A stretch of 64,000 nucleotides of DNA, taken from positions 1 through 64,000 of the forward strand of contig CACPNW010000002.1 in the NCBI GenBank assembly GCA_902635455.1, given 5' to 3'. The position numbers were made by a program, and so were the translations under genes. Positions 14,143-54,293 of the stretch are shown piece by piece. Within the stretch, counting starts at the first letter, position 1, and each line of letters begins with the position of its first letter. A model generated the notes under the pieces. That model was not told the origin of the DNA and did not search any database. It saw only the letters and a list, made by a program, of their open reading frames with translations. Source of the DNA: an uncultured Alphaproteobacteria bacterium. GTDB lineage: Bacteria > Pseudomonadota > Alphaproteobacteria > HIMB59 > GCA-002718135.

Positions 14143-15591
14143 TTGTTTTTATTTAATTTTTTATTTCTAGGTATTTTCACCGCTCTCCTTTTTCCTCCTT
14201 TTTTTATTTTTCCACTTGGATTTGTTATCTTTCCACTTTTTTGGAAAAATTTATTATTTTTAAATAAACAAAATTCAATAAAATTATTTTTTTGCAGTGG
14301 TTTTTTATATGGCTTAGGCCTTTTAACAATTATGTTATTTTGGATTCAAAATCCATTTTTCATTTATGAGGAAACAAGTGCTCTTTTTTTTCTTTCATAT
14401 CTATTAATAATTTTACTTTCATTAATTTTTGGTTTGTTCTTTATCTTGTTCAAATTTGTAAGAAATTTATACTACCAAATTTATTCTATTCCACTGATAC
14501 TAATATTAATAGAAATATTTATTTCAAATTTTTGGCATGGTTTTCCTTGGGTTTCATTTGTATTAACAATTTCAAATAATCCTTTTGGATCAATTTTAGT
14601 TTATTTATTTGGGCCTCATTTAAGTGGTTTTTTGTTAATATTATTTTTTCTTCTACCTCAAATTATTTTTATAAAACATAAATTAAAAAATATAATAATT
14701 GGATTGTACTTCATTATATTAGTAATAATTGTTTTTTTGTATGCTTATCAAAATTTACATAAATCTAATGCCTTTAAAGAAGTTTCTGTTGATATATTTC
14801 AAATGAATTTTTCAAATCCAACTCATGAATATTCATCTAATGAATCGAAATATAATGAAATTATAAACCTAATAAAAAATTCAAATGCAGAACTAATAAT
14901 TTTTGGAGAAAATAATTTTCCTTATTTAGTAAATGATTTGAAAAAAATTGAAATAAACCAATTTATAAATGATAATCAGACAGTAATTATAGGAGGAACA
15001 AGAAAAGAAAATAATAAATTTTATAATTCATTATTTTCTATTCAAAAAAACAGCACAACATATTTTGATAAAAAAGTACTAGTCCCTTTTGGTGAATTTG
15101 TTCCATTTAGAAAGTATATTGGGTTTATGGATTTTATTAGTGGGTCTATTGATTTTAGCAAAGGAACAAATGAAAGAATTATAAACACTAAAAATGAAAT
15201 AAGTTTTATACCTATAATTTGTTATGAAATTATTTTTTTTTGGAAGTTGATAAATAAAGAAAATAATTATTCTAATTTACTAATTAATATTACAAATGAT
15301 TTTTGGTTTGGTGACTATATTGGTCCCTATCAACATTTTTACTTATCAAAATTAAGGGCTGCAGAATTTAATAAAAATTTAATACGAGTTTCTAATAATG
15401 GTATTTCCAGTATTATAGATAACAATGGAAACATATTAGTTTCTTCTGAATTGAATAAAAAAGATAAACTTAGCTATAAGCTATTAATTAATGATGAAAA
15501 AAATTTAATAATACTTCATAAAATTTTAGGTTACATTTTAACTATTTTTTGCTTTATATCACTTTTTGTTTTGAAGCTTAAAGATGAGTAA
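14143..15591 (+). CDS. lnt: Apolipoprotein N-acyltransferase
   Basis: Polytopic N-terminus plus nitrilase domain: IIFGENNFPY, KKVLVPFGEFVPFRKYIGF, FIPIICYEIIFF, NITNDFWFGDYIGPYQHFYLSKLRAAEF; TTG start. Confidence 0.92.
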   Translation: MFLFNFLFLGIFTALLFPPFFIFPLGFVIFPLFWKNLLFLNKQNSIKLFFCSGFLYGLGLLTIMLFWIQNPFFIYEETSALFFLSYLLIILLSLIFGLFFILFKFVRNLYYQIYSIPLILILIEIFISNFWHGFPWVSFVLTISNNPFGSILVYLFGPHLSGFLLILFFLLPQIIFIKHKLKNIIIGLYFIILVIIVFLYAYQNLHKSNAFKEVSVDIFQMNFSNPTHEYSSNESKYNEIINLIKNSNAELIIFGENNFPYLVNDLKKIEINQFINDNQTVIIGGTRKENNKFYNSLFSIQKNSTTYFDKKVLVPFGEFVPFRKYIGFMDFISGSIDFSKGTNERIINTKNEISFIPIICYEIIFFWKLINKENNYSNLLINITNDFWFGDYIGPYQHFYLSKLRAAEFNKNLIRVSNNGISSIIDNNGNILVSSELNKKDKLSYKLLINDEKNLIILHKILGYILTIFCFISLFVLKLKDE

Positions 15592-16252
15592 AAATTTATT
15601 TAAATATAGAATGTATGGTCGCAGACAAGCAAGAAAAAAAAATAATTTTAATACGAACAATAAAGAAAAAAATGTAATTGAGGATATAAATTCAAAAAAA
15701 ATAAAGTTTCTTAAAAAAAATTATAATATACTAGATATCGGTTCAGGTAGTGGAGAAAGCACATTACATTTGAATGACAGATATCCAGATTCTCAAATTA
15801 TTGCATGTGATAATTTTAAAGATGGAAATATAAATTTAAGCAATAAAATTCTATCTAAAAAACTTAATAATATTATTATATTTAATGGTAATGTACTTGA
15901 GTTAATAGATAAAAAAATTAAAGAAGACACTCTAGACTCTGTATGGATATTATTCCCAGATCCTTGGCCAAAAAAAAGACATTCAAAGAGAAGACTAATT
16001 AGCAGCTTTTTCATAAAAAAATTGTCAAACTTAATTAAAAAAAATGGACACATACATATCGCTATCGATACTGATTTTTATCTTCGTCAGATATTAATAA
16101 TAATACATAAATATAGAAAAATTTTTTTATGGGAAAATCAAGGATTTGAAAGCTGGGAATACGATGATTCAACATTGCCCAAAACAAAATATTACAAAAA
16201 AGCTATGAAATTTGACAGAATTCCGTTTTATATTAATTTAAAAAAATTATAA
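15584..16252 (+). CDS. trmB: tRNA (guanine-N7)-methyltransferase
   Basis: YRMYGRRQARK, LDIGSGSGESTLHL, ILFPDPWPKKRHSKRRLI. Confidence 0.94.
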   Translation: MSKNLFKYRMYGRRQARKKNNFNTNNKEKNVIEDINSKKIKFLKKNYNILDIGSGSGESTLHLNDRYPDSQIIACDNFKDGNINLSNKILSKKLNNIIIFNGNVLELIDKKIKEDTLDSVWILFPDPWPKKRHSKRRLISSFFIKKLSNLIKKNGHIHIAIDTDFYLRQILIIIHKYRKIFLWENQGFESWEYDDSTLPKTKYYKKAMKFDRIPFYINLKKL

Positions 16253-16292
16253 GCTTGAGTTTTAATAAGATTTTAAATATAGGGCTTTAAAA

Positions 16293-16307
16293 TTTGATTT
16301 AATCAAA
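16293..16307. promoter_or_regulatory. Perfect palindrome TTTGATT-T-AATCAAA in the nusA leader
   Basis: 7-bp perfect inverted repeat directly abutting the pre-nusA terminator hairpin. Confidence 0.35.
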
Positions 16308-16331
16308 GGTGGGGTTTCCCGCCTTTTTTTT
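16308..16331 (+). terminator. Rho-independent terminator/attenuator-like hairpin just before nusA
   Basis: GGTGGG-GTTT-CCCGCC then T8; 6-bp GC-rich stem in AT-rich DNA; nusA ATG at 16342. Confidence 0.65.
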
Positions 16332-16341
16332 GGTGAATAAA

Positions 16342-17874
16342 ATGGCAAAACAAAAAATTAAAGTTATTAGAGAAGAAATGCTTCAAGTAGCCAATAATGT
16401 GGCTCAAGAAAAAAGTATTGATAAAGATTCAGTTTTTGGTGCAATGGAGCAGGCTTTAGAAAAAGCAGCTAGAGTAAAATATGGAATGGAAAGAGATATA
16501 AGAGTCTCTATAGATAGAGAGACAGGAGATATTAAACTTAACTCTTATCTAGAGGTAGTTGAAGAATTTACTGAAGAAGAACAGGCGAGACAAATATTAC
16601 TAAGTGAAGCTAAAAAACTAAAAACAAAAGTTGTTTTAGGAGATTTTATAATAGATGAACTTCCACCAATAGAATTAGGAAGAGTTGCTGCACAAAATGC
16701 TAAAGGAGTGATAATTCAAAAAGTTAGAGAGGCTGACAAATCTAGGCAATACGAAGAATATAAAGATAAGGTTGGAGAAATAGCAATCGGAATTGTTAAA
16801 AGAGTAGAATTTGGTAATTTAATAATTGATTTAGGAAAAAGTGAAGCAATTATTAAAAGAGAAGAATTAATTCCAAGAGAAACTTTTAAAAATGGAGACA
16901 GGGTTAGAGCATATATTTATGAAGTTAAAGATGACTTCAAGGGTTATCAAGTGTTTTTATCAAGAACCCATCCACAGTTTTTGGCAAAGTTATTTAGTCA
17001 AGAAGTTCCAGAAATATTTGATGGAATTATAATTGTTAAAAGTGTTGCACGTGATCCTGGTTCAAGAGCAAAGATTAGTGTTTACACTGAAGATTCTACA
17101 ATAGATCCTGTGGGAGCTTGCGTTGGAATGAGAGGCTCAAGAGTTCAAGCGGTTGTTAATGAATTACAAGGTGAAAAAATTGATATAGTTACTTGGTCAG
17201 AAAATGCAGCTACTTTTTTAGCTAATGCATTAGCACCAGCTGAAGTTAGTAAAATATTTCTATACGAAGAAAAAAATAAAGTTGAAGTAGTTATACCAGA
17301 TGATCAATTAAGTTTAGCAATAGGTAGAAAAGGTCAGAATGTAAAACTTGCTTCAAATCTTACTAATTTAGAAATTGATATATTAACTGAAGAGGAAGAA
17401 ACTGAAAGAAGACAAGAAGAATTTAAAGAAAAAACTCTTATATTAGCAGAATCACTTGATGTTGAAGATGTTATTGCTCAATTACTAGTAACAGAAGGAT
17501 ATGTATCAATTGAGTCTATAGCTTTAGAAAACGTTGAAAATATTGAAAAAATAGAAGGTTTTGATGATGATTTAGCTAAAGAAATAATTTTAAGAGCGAA
17601 TAATCATCTCAAGGAAAAAGATGAGGAAAACAAGAAAATTATTGATGAAAAGATTAGTGATGTAGATTTAAAAAATCTTGAAGGAATTAATAATAATATG
17701 TTGGCCTTGCTTGCAAAAAATAACATACTTACCTTAAATGATTTTGCTGATCTTGCGACTTTCGAACTAATTGATAAAGAAGAAGGTATATTTAAAAGTT
17801 TGGATCTTGATGAGGATAAAATTAATAAAATGATTATGAAAGCAAGAGAAAACTGGTTCGAAGAAAAAAAATAA
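16342..17874 (+). CDS. nusA: Transcription termination/antitermination factor NusA
   Basis: ORF track starts 16309; internal start MAKQKIKVIREEMLQVANNVAQEKSID fits NusA; S1/KH motifs (DPVGACVGMRGSRVQAV, LAIGRKGQNVKLA). Confidence 0.95.
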   Translation: MAKQKIKVIREEMLQVANNVAQEKSIDKDSVFGAMEQALEKAARVKYGMERDIRVSIDRETGDIKLNSYLEVVEEFTEEEQARQILLSEAKKLKTKVVLGDFIIDELPPIELGRVAAQNAKGVIIQKVREADKSRQYEEYKDKVGEIAIGIVKRVEFGNLIIDLGKSEAIIKREELIPRETFKNGDRVRAYIYEVKDDFKGYQVFLSRTHPQFLAKLFSQEVPEIFDGIIIVKSVARDPGSRAKISVYTEDSTIDPVGACVGMRGSRVQAVVNELQGEKIDIVTWSENAATFLANALAPAEVSKIFLYEEKNKVEVVIPDDQLSLAIGRKGQNVKLASNLTNLEIDILTEEEETERRQEEFKEKTLILAESLDVEDVIAQLLVTEGYVSIESIALENVENIEKIEGFDDDLAKEIILRANNHLKEKDEENKKIIDEKISDVDLKNLEGINNNMLALLAKNNILTLNDFADLATFELIDKEEGIFKSLDLDEDKINKMIMKARENWFEEKK

Positions 17875-17899
17875 ATTTTAAAAAAAGGAATTCATTAAA

Positions 17900-20164
17900 T
17901 TGGAAAAAAATAAAGATAGTAAACCAGATAACAAAAAAGGTAATAAAAAGCCGCTCAAATTATCTTCATCAGGAAGATTGCAAATTAGAAAAAATTTAGG
18001 GCCAACAGGAAATAAGGCAGGAAGACCTGGAAGCAAAAAAACAATTCAAATTGTTTTTCGAAATAAAAATAATCAGCAAAAAAGTTCATCTGCTGCCCAA
18101 TCAAATTTTAGAGGTTCATCTTCTTTTCGCTCACAACCTAACTTTTCGCCTTCTAAGATTAATGCAGGTTTAAATTTTAATAAAACTGGAAAATCACCAG
18201 ATAATAAAAATAAAAAATTTCAAGAACCAAAAAAAACTCAACCCAAAAAATCAACCCTAAAACCTAATGATGATAATTTGGGTAAAATTGATCCTAAAAA
18301 AATATTAGAACAAGAAGAAAGAGAATATGACAAATTTCCAAGTTTGGCTAAATTAAAAAGAGCTAGAGAAAAAGAAAAACTTAAAGCTCAAGAAACTGAT
18401 CCAGATTCTAAAATTTCTAGAGAGGTTTCAATTCCAGAAATTATTACTGTTCAAGAATTAGCAAGTCGAATGTCTGAAAAAACTGCGGACGTTGTAAAAA
18501 CCTTAATGAAAATAGGAGTAATGGCAAATGCAGCTCAATCTATAGAAGCTGATACTGCAGAAATAATTGCAACGGAGCTTGGTCATAAAGTAGTGAGAGT
18601 CAATGATGATGATATATTAAAAGAAATTGAAGATTTCGAAGATGATGAGAATTTGTTAACAACAAGGGCTCCAGTAGTGACTATAATGGGTCACGTGGAT
18701 CATGGAAAAACAAGCATTTTAGATGCTTTTAGAAGCTCTAATGTGGTAGCAGGAGAATCAGGTGGCATTACTCAACATATTGGAGCATATCAAATAGATA
18801 AAAATGGTAAAAAAATAACATTTATTGATACGCCCGGCCACGCAGCATTTTCAAATATGCGGGCTAGAGGAGCAAAAACTACTGATATAATTGTTCTAGT
18901 TGTTGCTGCTGATGATAGTTTAAAACCTCAGACAATTGAATCTATCGCTCATGCAAAAGCAGCAAAAGTTCCAATAATAATAGCTATAAATAAAATTGAT
19001 TTACCTAATGCAGATCCTGAAAAAGTTAGGAATGATTTATTAACTCAAGAAGTTGTTGTTGAAAAATTAAGTGGAGAAGTTCTTGATGTTGAGGTTTCTG
19101 CATTAAAAAAACTAAATTTGGATAAATTAGAAGAAGCAATTTTACTTCAATCAGATTTATTAAATCTAAAAGCCAACGCCAAGAGGCCAGCAAGAGGAGC
19201 TATTATAGAATCAAAACTAGAAAAAGGAAGAGGTTCTGTAGCAACTGTTTTGGTTCAAAAAGGTACTCTAAAAGTTAGTGATATATTTGTATCTGGTTCA
19301 GAGTGGGGCAAGGTTAAAGCTTTGATTAATGATAAAGGAGAAAATATAAAAGAAGCATTACCATCGATGCCTGTAGAAGTTTTAGGATTTGATTCTAATC
19401 CATACGCTGGCGATGATTTTATAGTGGTTGAAAATGAAAGTATAGCTAGAAAAATTGCAGAATATCGTTTTAATAAAATTAAAATTCACAAAAATAAAGT
19501 TGGCTCATCTAATGTTCAAGAAATGTTTAAACAAATATCAGAAGGCAAATCTAAGTCTCTACCAGTTATTATCAAAGCAGATGTTCAAGGCTCATCCGAG
19601 GCTATTGAAAATTCTATAAATAAATTATCAACCGAAGAAGTTAGTGTTGAAGTGATTCATAAAGGAGTAGGAGCAATAACAGAAAGTGATGTTGCACTAG
19701 CAAATTCAAGCAAAGGCCTAATTGTTGGGTTTAATGTTAGGGCAATTCCGCAGGCAAGAGATGCGGCTAAAAGAGATGGTATTAATATAAAATATTATTC
19801 TATAATTTATGAATTAATTGATGATATTAAAAATCTTTTAGGAGGCTTGCTTAGTCCTAGTATTAGTGAAAATATTACCGGCAATGTTGAAATAAGAGAA
19901 GTATTTAATATTTCAAAAGTAGGTAATATAGCGGGATGTATTGTTAAAGATGGTTTGATTTCAAGGAATTCACAAATTCGTATTCTTCGAGATAGTGTGG
20001 TGATTCATACAGGATCTATAAGTAGTTTAAAAAGATTCAAAGATGAGGTTAAGGAAGTCAAAAATGGATATGAGTGCGGTGTCATGATAGAAAATTATTC
20101 AGATATTAAAGTGGGTGACATTATAGAAACTTACGAAGAAAAGAAAACTGCTAGAGAATTATAA
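17900..20164 (+). CDS. infB: Translation initiation factor IF-2
   Basis: [48 protein letters not shown] start. Confidence 0.97.
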
Positions 20165-20170
20165 AAAAAA

Positions 20171-20551
20171 ATGAAAAATTCAATGTCTTCGCAGAGACAG
20201 ATGAGGTATGCTGAATTAATAAGATCATTAATTAGTGACTGTTTACTTAGAGAAGATTTTTATGATCAAGAAATAAAATTTAACTCAATAACAGTTTCAT
20301 TTGTAAGGATGTCAAAAGATTTAAAAATTGCAAATGTATATCTAATGCCCTTAGGGGGGAATCAACAAGAAGGTTTTTTAGAAAAAGTAAATTCAAAAAA
20401 ATACATTTTTCAAAAATTTTTAGCAAAAGCAAAATTAAAATCAAAATTTACACCAAAAATAATTTTTTTTATTGATGATACTTTTGATGAAGCTGAAAAG
20501 ATTAAAAAACTTCTTCTAGATAAAAAAGTTTTAAGAGATATTGATGAATGA
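20171..20551 (+). CDS. rbfA: Ribosome-binding factor A
   Basis: SQRQMRYAELIRSLISDCL...TVSFVRMSKDLKIANVYLMPLG; between infB and truB. Confidence 0.9.
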   Translation: MKNSMSSQRQMRYAELIRSLISDCLLREDFYDQEIKFNSITVSFVRMSKDLKIANVYLMPLGGNQQEGFLEKVNSKKYIFQKFLAKAKLKSKFTPKIIFFIDDTFDEAEKIKKLLLDKKVLRDIDE

Positions 20552-21455
20552 AAATATTCAAGGTTGGATAAATCTTTATAAGCCCAAAAACATCACTTCA
20601 TTTTATGCTATAAAAAAAATTAAATATAAATTCAAAATAAAAAAAATTGGACACGCAGGAACTTTAGATCCTTTGGCAGAAGGAGTGTTGCCAATAGCAA
20701 TTGGAAAAGCTACTAAACTTATACCTTTTATTCATGGTCAGCAAAAAAAATATATTTTTGAAATCAAATGGGGGGAAAAAACTTCAACCGATGATTCAGA
20801 TGGGGTTGTTATTCATACTTCAAAAAAATTACCTGAAGAAGAAGAAATAAATAAACAATTAAAAAATTTTTTAGGTTATATTGATCAAACCCCTCCTAAA
20901 GCTTCAGCAGTTAAGATTAATGGTAAGAGAGCATATCAGCTGTTAAGAGAAAATAAAAATATTGAACTAAAGCCAAAAAAAGTTTTTGTAAGTAAAATAA
21001 AATTATTAAATTCGATTGATAAACATTACTCAACATTTGAAATTGAATGTGGCAAAGGTTTTTATGTCAGGGCTTTCGCCAGAGATTTAGCTGAGTCTTT
21101 AGGTACATTTGGGCATATTGTAGCTTTGAAGCGAGCAAAAGTTGGGCTTTTTGCAATAGAAACTGCGATTTTACTGGACGATTTAATAAAAATAAGACAA
21201 ACGCAGCAAGAATTTAATTTTATTCACTCTTCTGTTTCTATGCTGGACGACATCTTGGCATATGAAGTTGTTGAGGAAGAAGATTTAAAAAATCTTTCTT
21301 TAGGTAAGTCGATTATTCTAAATTTAAATAATTTGATTAAACCTTTGTTAAATTCAGTTGATGAAAAATTGGTTTTTTTATCATTTAAGGGAAATATAAT
21401 TTCTTATGGCAAATTAAACAATGATTTGTTCATACCAAAAAAAATATTATTATAG
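20541..21455 (+). CDS. truB: tRNA pseudouridine-55 synthase
   Basis: GWINLYKPKNITSF, KIGHAGTLDPLAEGVLPIAIGKATKL. Confidence 0.95.
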   Translation: MMNENIQGWINLYKPKNITSFYAIKKIKYKFKIKKIGHAGTLDPLAEGVLPIAIGKATKLIPFIHGQQKKYIFEIKWGEKTSTDDSDGVVIHTSKKLPEEEEINKQLKNFLGYIDQTPPKASAVKINGKRAYQLLRENKNIELKPKKVFVSKIKLLNSIDKHYSTFEIECGKGFYVRAFARDLAESLGTFGHIVALKRAKVGLFAIETAILLDDLIKIRQTQQEFNFIHSSVSMLDDILAYEVVEEEDLKNLSLGKSIILNLNNLIKPLLNSVDEKLVFLSFKGNIISYGKLNNDLFIPKKILL

Positions 21456-21463
21456 GAGATCTG

Positions 21464-21733
21464 ATGTCGATTACAAAAGAAACAAAAAAAGAGTTAATTG
21501 ATAAGTTTGCTACAAATGAAAAAGATACTGGATCAGCACAAGTTCAGATTGCAGTATTAAGTGAAAGAATCAATAATTTAATAGAGCATTTCAAGATTCA
21601 TAAACATGATAAGCACTCACAAAAGGGGTTGGTTGCGCTAGTAAATAAAAGAAAAAAATTATTAAGTTATCTTTCAAGAAATGATCATAATAAATATCAA
21701 GATTTAATTAAAGAATTAAAAATCAGAGGATAA
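21464..21733 (+). CDS. rpsO: 30S ribosomal protein S15
   Basis: DTGSAQVQIAVLSERINNLIEHFKIHKHDKHSQKGLVALVNKRKKLLSYL. Confidence 0.97.
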   Translation: MSITKETKKELIDKFATNEKDTGSAQVQIAVLSERINNLIEHFKIHKHDKHSQKGLVALVNKRKKLLSYLSRNDHNKYQDLIKELKIRG

Positions 21734-21760
21734 GAATATACAAAATAGAAAAGAGTAAAA

Positions 21761-23845
21761 ATGTTTGATGTAAAAAAAGTAGAATTAGAGTGGGCAGGAA
21801 AAAATTTAATAATAGAAACTGGAAAAATAGCAAGACAGGCTGATGCATCAGTTCTGGTAACGTATGGTGGCACAACCGTTATGGCGAATGTGGTCGCTGC
21901 TAAAAAGGCAAAGCCTGATATTGATTTTTTTCCTTTAACGGTCAATTATCAAGAAAAATTTTATTCAGTAGGCAAAATACCTGGTGGATTTTTTAAGAGA
22001 GAGGCAAGACCAACTGAAAAAGAAACGTTAATTTGTAGATTAATTGATAGGCCAGTAAGACCTTTATTTCATAAAGATTTTAAGAATGAGACACAAATTA
22101 CTTGTACTGTTCTATCTCATGATGTTGCAAATGATTCTGATATAGTTGCAATAATTGCAACAAGTGCAGCACTTACTTTGTCTGGCCTGCCTTTTATGGG
22201 CCCTCTAGGAGCTGCAAAAATAGGAAGAATAGATAATGAATTTATAATTAACCCAACAATAGAAGAAATTAAAAAATCAGATTTAGACTTAGTTGTTGCG
22301 GGTACTAGTAAAGGTGTTTTAATGGTTGAATCAGAAGCAAATCAGCTTTCTGAAGAAAAAATGCTTGAAGCAGTGGTTTTGGGACAAGAATCCTACTCAA
22401 AAGTAATTGAGGCTATAATTTCACTTGCAAAACAAGCAGCAAAAAATCCTTGGATATTACCTGAAAAAGATGAAGAAATTAAAAATTTACCTAATATTAT
22501 AGCTAAAGATTATAAAGAAGAGTTTCAAAAAGCATATAAAATTCAAGAAAAACAAAGTAGATCAGAAAAGTTAAATTCATTAAGAGTTGAGATTGAAGAA
22601 AAATTTGTTACCGAAAACTTAACTTCTGTAATTGTAGCTGATGTTGTTAAGTCTATCGAAAAAGATATTGTAAGAGGTGAATTATTAAATACAGGTAATC
22701 GTATTGATGGAAGAGACACTAAAACTATTAGACCAATAGTATGTGAAACAGGTATTCTTGAACGTACCCATGGTTCTGCATTATTTACAAGAGGTGAAAC
22801 TCAAGCGCTAGTAGTTACAACGCTAGGAACAGGTTTAGATGAACAAAGAATTGATGCTATTGAGGGCGAGTATAAAGAAAATTTTATGCTTCATTATAAT
22901 TTTCCTCAATATTCTGTTGGTGAAGTTGGAAGAGCTGGCTCTACTAGTAGAAGAGAAATTGGTCACGGTAAATTAGCATGGAGAGCAATTCATCCAATGT
23001 TACCTACCTCTGAAAAATTTCCATATACTTATAGGGTCGTTTCAGAAATAACAGAATCTAATGGATCAAGTTCTATGGCGACTGTATGTGGAACTTCAAT
23101 GTCCTTAATGGATGCAGGGGTACCATTGGAAAAACCAATTGCGGGTATTGCTATGGGCTTGATTAAAGAAGATGAAAAATATGTTGTTTTATCTGATATT
23201 CTGGGAGATGAAGATCATTTAGGAGATATGGATTTTAAAGTAGCAGGAACAATTGATGGAATTACATCTCTTCAAATGGATATTAAAATTACAAGTATAA
23301 CATCAAAAATTATGAAAGAGGCTTTAGAACAAGCTAAAGAGGGACGACACCACATTTTAAATGAAATGGCAAAAGCTATAGATTCTCCAAAGGAATCTAT
23401 ATCAAGTTATGCACCAACAATTACCACTATAAAAGTTCATAAAGATAAAGTTAGGGAAGTTATTGGTAAAGGTGGATCAGTAATAAGAGAGATTACAGAA
23501 AAAACTGGAGCTAAAATTGAAATTGACGATGAAGGTTTGGTGAGTATTGCTGCTGTTGATTCTAAATCGGGCCAAGCAGCTATTGATTGGATTAATAGTA
23601 TTGTTGAAGAGCCTGAGATTGGTAAAATTTATGAAGGAAAAGTAGTAAAACTAATGGAATTTGGTGCTTTTGTTAATTTTATGGGATCAAGAGATGGATT
23701 AGTACACATAAGTCAACTTAAAAAGGAGAGGGTTGAAAAAGTAAGTGATGTTGTTAAAGAAGGTGATTTGGTAAAAGTAAAAGTTTTAGATATCGACTCA
23801 AGAGGGAAGGTTAAACTTTCTATGAAAGAAGTTGAGTCAGATTAA
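21761..23845 (+). CDS. pnp: Polyribonucleotide nucleotidyltransferase
   Basis: Two RNase PH domains, KH ([22 protein letters not shown]) and S1 domain. Confidence 0.97.
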
Positions 23846-53126: not shown

Positions 53127-54293
53127 ATGAAAAGATCTTATTTATTTACAAGTGAATCAGTTTCAGAAGGACATCCTGATAAAGTATGTGACAGAATATC
53201 AGATATGGTTGTTGATAGTTATTTATCTCAGGATCCAAATTCAAGAGTTGCCTGTGAAACTCTAACTACAACAAATAAAGTTGTTCTAGCTGGTGAAGTT
53301 AGAGGACCGTCTATTTCAAAAGATGAGATAATTTCTAACGTAAGAGAATGCATAAAAGATATAGGATATGAACAAGATGGATTCCATTGGCAAAATTGTG
53401 AAGTTGATTATCATTTACATCCACAATCTTCTGACATTGCAATGGGAGTTGATGCTGGAGATAACAAAGATGAAGGTGCAGGTGATCAAGGTATAATGTT
53501 TGGCTATGCTTGTAAGGATACAGATAGTCTAATGCCAGCCCCAATTCACTATTCGCATCAAATATTATACAAAATGGCAAAAGCAAGAAAAGATGGAACT
53601 GCTAATGGACTAGAGCCTGATTCTAAAAGTCAAGTAACTATGCTTTATGAAAATGACAAACCTAGCAAAGTAACATCATTAGTTATTTCTTCACAGCACA
53701 AGGAGGGATTATCCCCTTCTGATGTTAGAGAAATTGTTAAACCTTATGTCTATGAGTGTATACCCAATCATCTATTGGAAGATTTAAAAGATGAAGATTT
53801 TTACGTTAATCCAACTGGAAATTTTGTAATTGGTGGACCAGACGGAGACTCTGGATTAACAGGAAGAAAAATTATAGTTGACACGTATGGTGGGGCCGCA
53901 CCACATGGTGGTGGTGCTTTTTCAGGAAAAGACCCATCAAAAGTTGATAGATCTGCAGCTTATGCAGCAAGGTATTTAGCAAAAAATATTGTTGCTGCTG
54001 ACTTAGCTGATCAATGTGTAATACAACTTTCATATGCTATTGGTGTATCTAAACCACTGTCTATCTATGTTAATACAAATAGCACAAACAAAATTGATGA
54101 AGCAAAGATAGAAAAAATGATTCCTGATTTATTTGATCTCAGTCCCAGAGGGATAATCGAACATTTAAAATTAAGAAACCCAATATATGTTCCAACCGCT
54201 GCTTACGGACACTTTGGACGTAATCCTAGTGATAATGGTCAATTTAGTTGGGAGAAAACTGATTTGGTAGATAAATTAAAAAGTGCAATTTAA
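53127..54293 (+). CDS. metK: S-adenosylmethionine synthetase
   Basis: [55 protein letters not shown]. Confidence 0.98.

Follow-up and report, generated by a model that had tools for sequence, protein, structure and literature searches.

The hairpin that stands directly before nusA in this SAR11 genome is, as judged from its sequence, probably (at a likelihood of roughly 0.7) a rimP-leader transcription attenuator that was retained when the Pelagibacterales lost rimP, with NusA as the most likely effector. In most bacteria, rimP stands before nusA. Among predicted bacterial attenuators, the rimP-leader has been called the most widespread; its effector outside Bacillus subtilis is unsettled, and the candidates are RimP and NusA. 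The rimP-leader as such is a known kind of attenuator. What is new is the arrangement, in which the hairpin lies against nusA after the loss of rimP.

The nusA leader and its surroundings

The window, meaning the whole 64 kb stretch of DNA that was analysed, carries the features described here on its forward (+) strand. The last gene of the upstream run is trmB (15584..16252), which encodes tRNA (guanine46-N7)-methyltransferase (Pfam Methyltransf_4, 1.5e-32; TIGR00091, 2.2e-27, a value below the curated cut-off of that family). It is separated by a gap of 89 nt from nusA (16342..17874; TIGR01953, 7.5e-122; NusA_N, S1, and KH domains), the first gene after the leader, which is followed by infB, rbfA, truB, rpsO, and pnp (17900..23845), as identified by NCBIfam equivalogs. 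The usual place of ylxR in alphaproteobacteria is between nusA and infB; the gene is absent from positions 17875-17899, and 31 relatives give one weak sub-threshold match and none above the cut-off. The relatives that were found for this locus belong to SAR11 (Pelagibacterales).

The gap contains a terminator hairpin, AAAGGTGGG-gttt-CCCGCCTTT (16305..16326), with the GGG..CCC core of the rimP-leader. Its stem has 9 bp, including five GC pairs and one U-G pair, and it runs into the T8 tract of an intrinsic terminator (16324..16331). A 10-nt spacer, GGTGAATAAA, then leads to the ATG of nusA at 16342-16344. The hairpin lies about 16-37 nt upstream of this start codon, which has almost no Shine-Dalgarno sequence. 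Upstream of the ATG, the nusA frame stays open across the hairpin as far as GTG 16309, and this codon and TTG 16330 are in-frame alternative starts; in the alignment, the relatives favour the ATG.

When both strands of the window were scanned strictly for terminators (a stem of 6 bp or more, including five or more GC pairs, and a T-run behind it), the hairpin before nusA was the sole match in a stretch that holds dozens of genes. The same scan returned no match in 40 dinucleotide shuffles. A sequence-only reading made before this analysis had described a palindrome and a terminator with T8 ending 10 nt before the nusA start codon; the sequence bears this out, and the hairpin exceeds what chance would give. 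Looser settings add a few weaker sites in the window, none of them with T8, and a simple scan of the surrounding 8 kb finds four sites, among which the nusA-leader hairpin has the longest stem. At 53898-53920, the + strand has another GC-rich hairpin, GCACCACATGGTGGTGGTGC-TTTTT, whose T-run is short. Besides the nusA-leader hairpin, the window is nearly devoid of canonical GC-stem intrinsic terminators, suggesting that SAR11 ends most transcripts by other means.

The weak AT palindrome TTTGATT-T-AATCAAA (16293..16307) is probably incidental. Its folding energy in the window is -1.3 kcal/mol, the alignment columns 16287-16298 are gapped in about 64-79% of the relatives, and the region folds only in close relatives (-1 to -2 kcal/mol), while many relatives that do have the columns do not fold. 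The terminator alone is conserved, and the idea of the sequence-only reading that palindrome and terminator form one composite element has to be given up. As a candidate antiterminator, the palindrome was rejected for the same lack of conservation. Alignment and folding reveal no conserved second structure and no visible antiterminator in the leader.

Conservation in the Pelagibacterales

The alignment consisted of 73 sequences (72 relatives and the window) and was anchored on the GGTGGG/CCCRCC pattern. This pattern is present in every SAR11 relative that has sequence upstream of nusA; the only relatives without it (L061, L063, and L065) are each cut by a contig end inside nusA. Across the 73 SAR11 loci, the stem and T8 are invariant except for the R position of CCCRCC, and the variable parts are the loop, the flanking bases, and the spacer before the ATG. 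Alignment of the trmB-nusA gaps of relatives had been proposed earlier as a check on attenuation, with a lack of conservation counting against it; the conservation turned out to be extreme.

In a wider search for GGTGGG-N3-6-CCCRCC-T6, 129 of 162 Pelagibacterales genomes had a single copy, as did all 20 genomes of the order that are at least 90% complete. None of the 162 genomes holds more than one copy, which marks the pattern as a locus-specific motif, and the reversed pattern, used as a control, has no match in them. Where the surroundings were inspected, the pattern stands directly 5' of nusA in both SAR11 families.

Loss of rimP from the operon

The RimP_N domain is absent from the genome of the window and from all of 150 Pelagibacterales genomes (0/150), and RimP_C from all of 60 (0/60); the same RimP search finds RimP in 245 of 289 genomes of the class. 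In an outgroup (L075), the gene order is metK-trmB-GGTGGGCCAGCGGCCCACC-A-T8-rimP-nusA, and Bartonella (L077) has metK-trmB-GAGTGGG..CCCGCTC-T-run-rimP-nusA. Of 30 further genomes of the class, 23 have a best terminator before rimP that is also of the TGGG (or GCGGG)..CCC type with a T-run. In the outgroups, the rimP-leader is tens of nucleotides farther from the start codon, and the T-run is still kept.

Since the upstream neighbour, the hairpin, and the operon are the same, minus rimP, the simplest account of these sequences is that the hairpin would be a rimP-leader attenuator, orphaned by the loss of rimP from between the leader and nusA. The sequence-only reading had pointed to the rimP leader that gammaproteobacteria have at the equivalent operon. 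The kinship in kind holds, but the relation appears to go beyond analogy, the element here probably being the rimP-leader itself.

At least three other alphaproteobacteria without RimP (L141, L146, and L147) have hairpin variants of their own directly before nusA (AAATGGGCTTTAAGCCCATTT-T-run and others). Such a hairpin is missing before nusA in the RimP-less L142-L145, L149, L150, and L152, so its retention is not universal. The NusA tree does not resolve the number of independent rimP losses.

A promoter-like element upstream of the hairpin

Most likely, to judge by the aligned sequences, nusA has its own promoter (16254-16283), which overlaps the end of trmB and places the hairpin within the 5' leader of nusA. 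The promoter-like element in question, CTTGAG(T)-17-TATAGG (16254..16283), lies directly 3' of the trmB stop. The arrangement CTTG(A)-N17/18-TATA is found upstream of the hairpin in 72 of the 73 sequences, a few of which have a 15-nt spacer; by alignment column, TATA is conserved at 100% and CTTG at 99%, and TATA is located 18-31 nt upstream of GGTGGG. By itself, CTTGA-N-TATA is not commoner than chance in the window, so the argument for a promoter is one of positional conservation among related sequences. The predicted transcription start is at about 16289-16291. If transcription begins 6-7 nt past the -10 hexamer, as assumed here, the RNA before the stem would be only about 5-18 nt long.

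Many outgroup rimP-leaders have similar elements 9-61 nt upstream (mean best score 7.9, versus 5.3 in shuffles), and the second SAR11 family has a comparable TAGACA-17-TATTTT, read by eye, within the end of trmB. Inspection of the sequence between the hairpin and the ATG found no -10-like hexamer placed to start transcription there. A promoter at or after 16331, which had been named as the finding that would reduce the hairpin to a trmB terminator, is thus not in evidence, and the promoter-like element lies upstream instead. The supposition that nusA-infB would rely on read-through from trmB is not necessary either, since a promoter of its own is most likely.

A possible mechanism of regulation

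The analysis directly shows the sequence of the element, how it is conserved, and that its position is homologous; from these observations, we infer promoter use, termination in vivo, and the part of NusA as effector. RNA polymerase would start at the promoter overlapping the trmB stop region and, in the Pelagibacteraceae, would transcribe the 6-9 bp GC-core hairpin after roughly 5-18 nt, and then U8. At U8, it would either terminate with a very small RNA or read through into nusA-infB-rbfA-truB-rpsO-pnp, and the expression level of nusA-infB would be set by this read-through of the leader terminator. The same hairpin would also stop polymerases coming from trmB. Termination so near the transcription start may be inefficient.

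The decision would most likely be made by a protein that acts on the elongation complex at the invariant hairpin, because the leader has neither room for nor trace of an aptamer, a leader peptide, or an antiterminator. A stem that is conserved as sequence, with no conserved second structure beside it, fits protein-controlled termination. NusA stimulates hairpin pausing and termination, and it would be the best candidate effector, closing a negative feedback loop on its own production. RimP is ruled out as a required regulator in SAR11, because it is absent there. The sequence-only reading had favoured autoregulatory attenuation. The conserved hairpin and the promoter-like element upstream of it lend good support to its first half, attenuation ahead of nusA-infB, while autoregulation by NusA is suggested by the precedent of B. 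subtilis (PMC12288461).

It is tempting, at somewhat less than even odds, to go one step further: SAR11 might possess a stripped-down, RimP-independent NusA thermostat, whose terminator stands some 5-18 nt after the start, which has no other leader element, and whose sole input is the loading of polymerase with NusA. If this were true, the order-wide loss of rimP beside a hairpin of unaltered sequence would amount to a natural experiment, in which the rimP-leader answers to an input other than RimP. A large, abundant order without rimP but with an unchanged hairpin takes RimP off the list of candidates there. What remains in SAR11 is a very small version of the switch, well suited to clean reconstitution. 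Furthermore, a genome that is streamlined and poor in classical terminators seems to have preserved one at the gene for a termination factor.

Alternative explanations

The alternative that deserves most consideration, possible if clearly short of even odds, accepts attenuation and assigns it to an effector other than NusA, such as NusG, a product of the same operon that serves initiation or ribosome assembly (IF-2, RbfA, or S15), or polymerase speed and nucleotide supply. The sequence names no effector, and the genes for IF-2, RbfA, and S15 belong to the same run. However, neither an aptamer-like sequence nor another conserved structure is seen in the leader; among the products of the operon, it is NusA that acts on termination hairpins, and the B. 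subtilis case is one of NusA (PMC12288461). It is unlikely that the hairpin is a plain terminator of the run ending in trmB, with unregulated termination and a nusA promoter that lies upstream of it by chance. Terminators are ordinary at the ends of gene runs, and this one is directly 3' of trmB. Yet the promoter-like element is 5' of the hairpin, so that nusA transcripts would have to cross it; no other comparable terminator exists in 64 kb holding dozens of genes; the outgroup hairpin sits in the rimP leader; and the stem is invariant in sequence, beyond what mere pairing demands.

A role that is mainly post-transcriptional is slightly less probable still. A stable 5' stem could limit ribosome access or shield a short leader from decay, and it would be well placed to do so, inside or beside the ribosome footprint of a start codon with hardly any Shine-Dalgarno sequence, and almost 5'-terminal given the predicted start. 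This would leave the invariant, uninterrupted T8 after the stem without a purpose, since termination needs it and neither stability nor occlusion does; the more distant outgroup rimP-leaders keep the T-run as well. Finally, the inverted repeat might be a DNA operator for a repressor, and GGTGGG..CCCACC is indeed a perfect DNA palindrome in most relatives. This is very improbable: the window and many other sequences have GGTGGG..CCCGCC, which pairs as RNA (through U-G) and breaks the symmetry of the DNA, and T8 is invariant. Class-wide, the same stem position reads U-A, U-G, or C-G, with the RNA helix kept.

Comparison with known systems

The closest relative of the SAR11 element is the rimP-leader of Naville and Gautheret (2010), which bears a protein-type attenuator signature and for which NusA was named as the best candidate effector and RimP as the other (PMC2965389). 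Both have a short hairpin with a G-rich 5' arm, a C-rich 3' arm, a GGG..CCC core, and a T-stretch, both occupy the 5' leader of the (rimP-)nusA-infB operon, and both combine a conserved stem sequence with the lack of an antiterminator (PMC2965389). In the published leaders, 4-130 nt separate the element from the operon's first gene (PMC2965389); in the SAR11 window the distance is 10 nt to nusA, which is first since rimP is absent. The differences are that SAR11 has no rimP, that its hairpin adjoins nusA, and that its predicted leader is extremely short. In addition, the inner c..g pair of the GGGc..gCCC motif is missing in most SAR11 (GGTGGG-N3-5-CCCRCC). Most outgroup rimP-leaders have this pair, as do the RimP-less L141 and L146, and the GGG..CCC core is invariant in SAR11.

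The Rfam family RF01770 (rimP) has the same operon and the same terminator position, but represents a longer, gammaproteobacterial form, and the window scores 15 bits against its cut-off of 47. At gathering level, Rfam gave no match anywhere in the window. The relaxed matches of the leader are weak and driven by the hairpin and T-run; one of them, L20_leader (22.9 bits versus a cut-off of 58.7), was rejected. The Pelagibacter RNA survey of Meyer (2009) makes no mention of nusA.

In E. coli, NusA represses its own nusA-infB operon (Plumbridge 1985; Nakamura 1985, as cited in PMC2965389), as it would in SAR11. The gammaproteobacterial system differs in its gene order, which includes rimP, and, in several Gammaproteobacteria, in a longer leader with tandem hairpins. 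In B. subtilis, NusA is autoregulated via NusA-stimulated termination in its 5' leader (2025 review, PMC12288461). That case has been shown experimentally and has rimP (ylxS) in place, whereas the SAR11 case is inferred and lacks rimP; in both, the leader of the nusA-containing operon has an intrinsic terminator.
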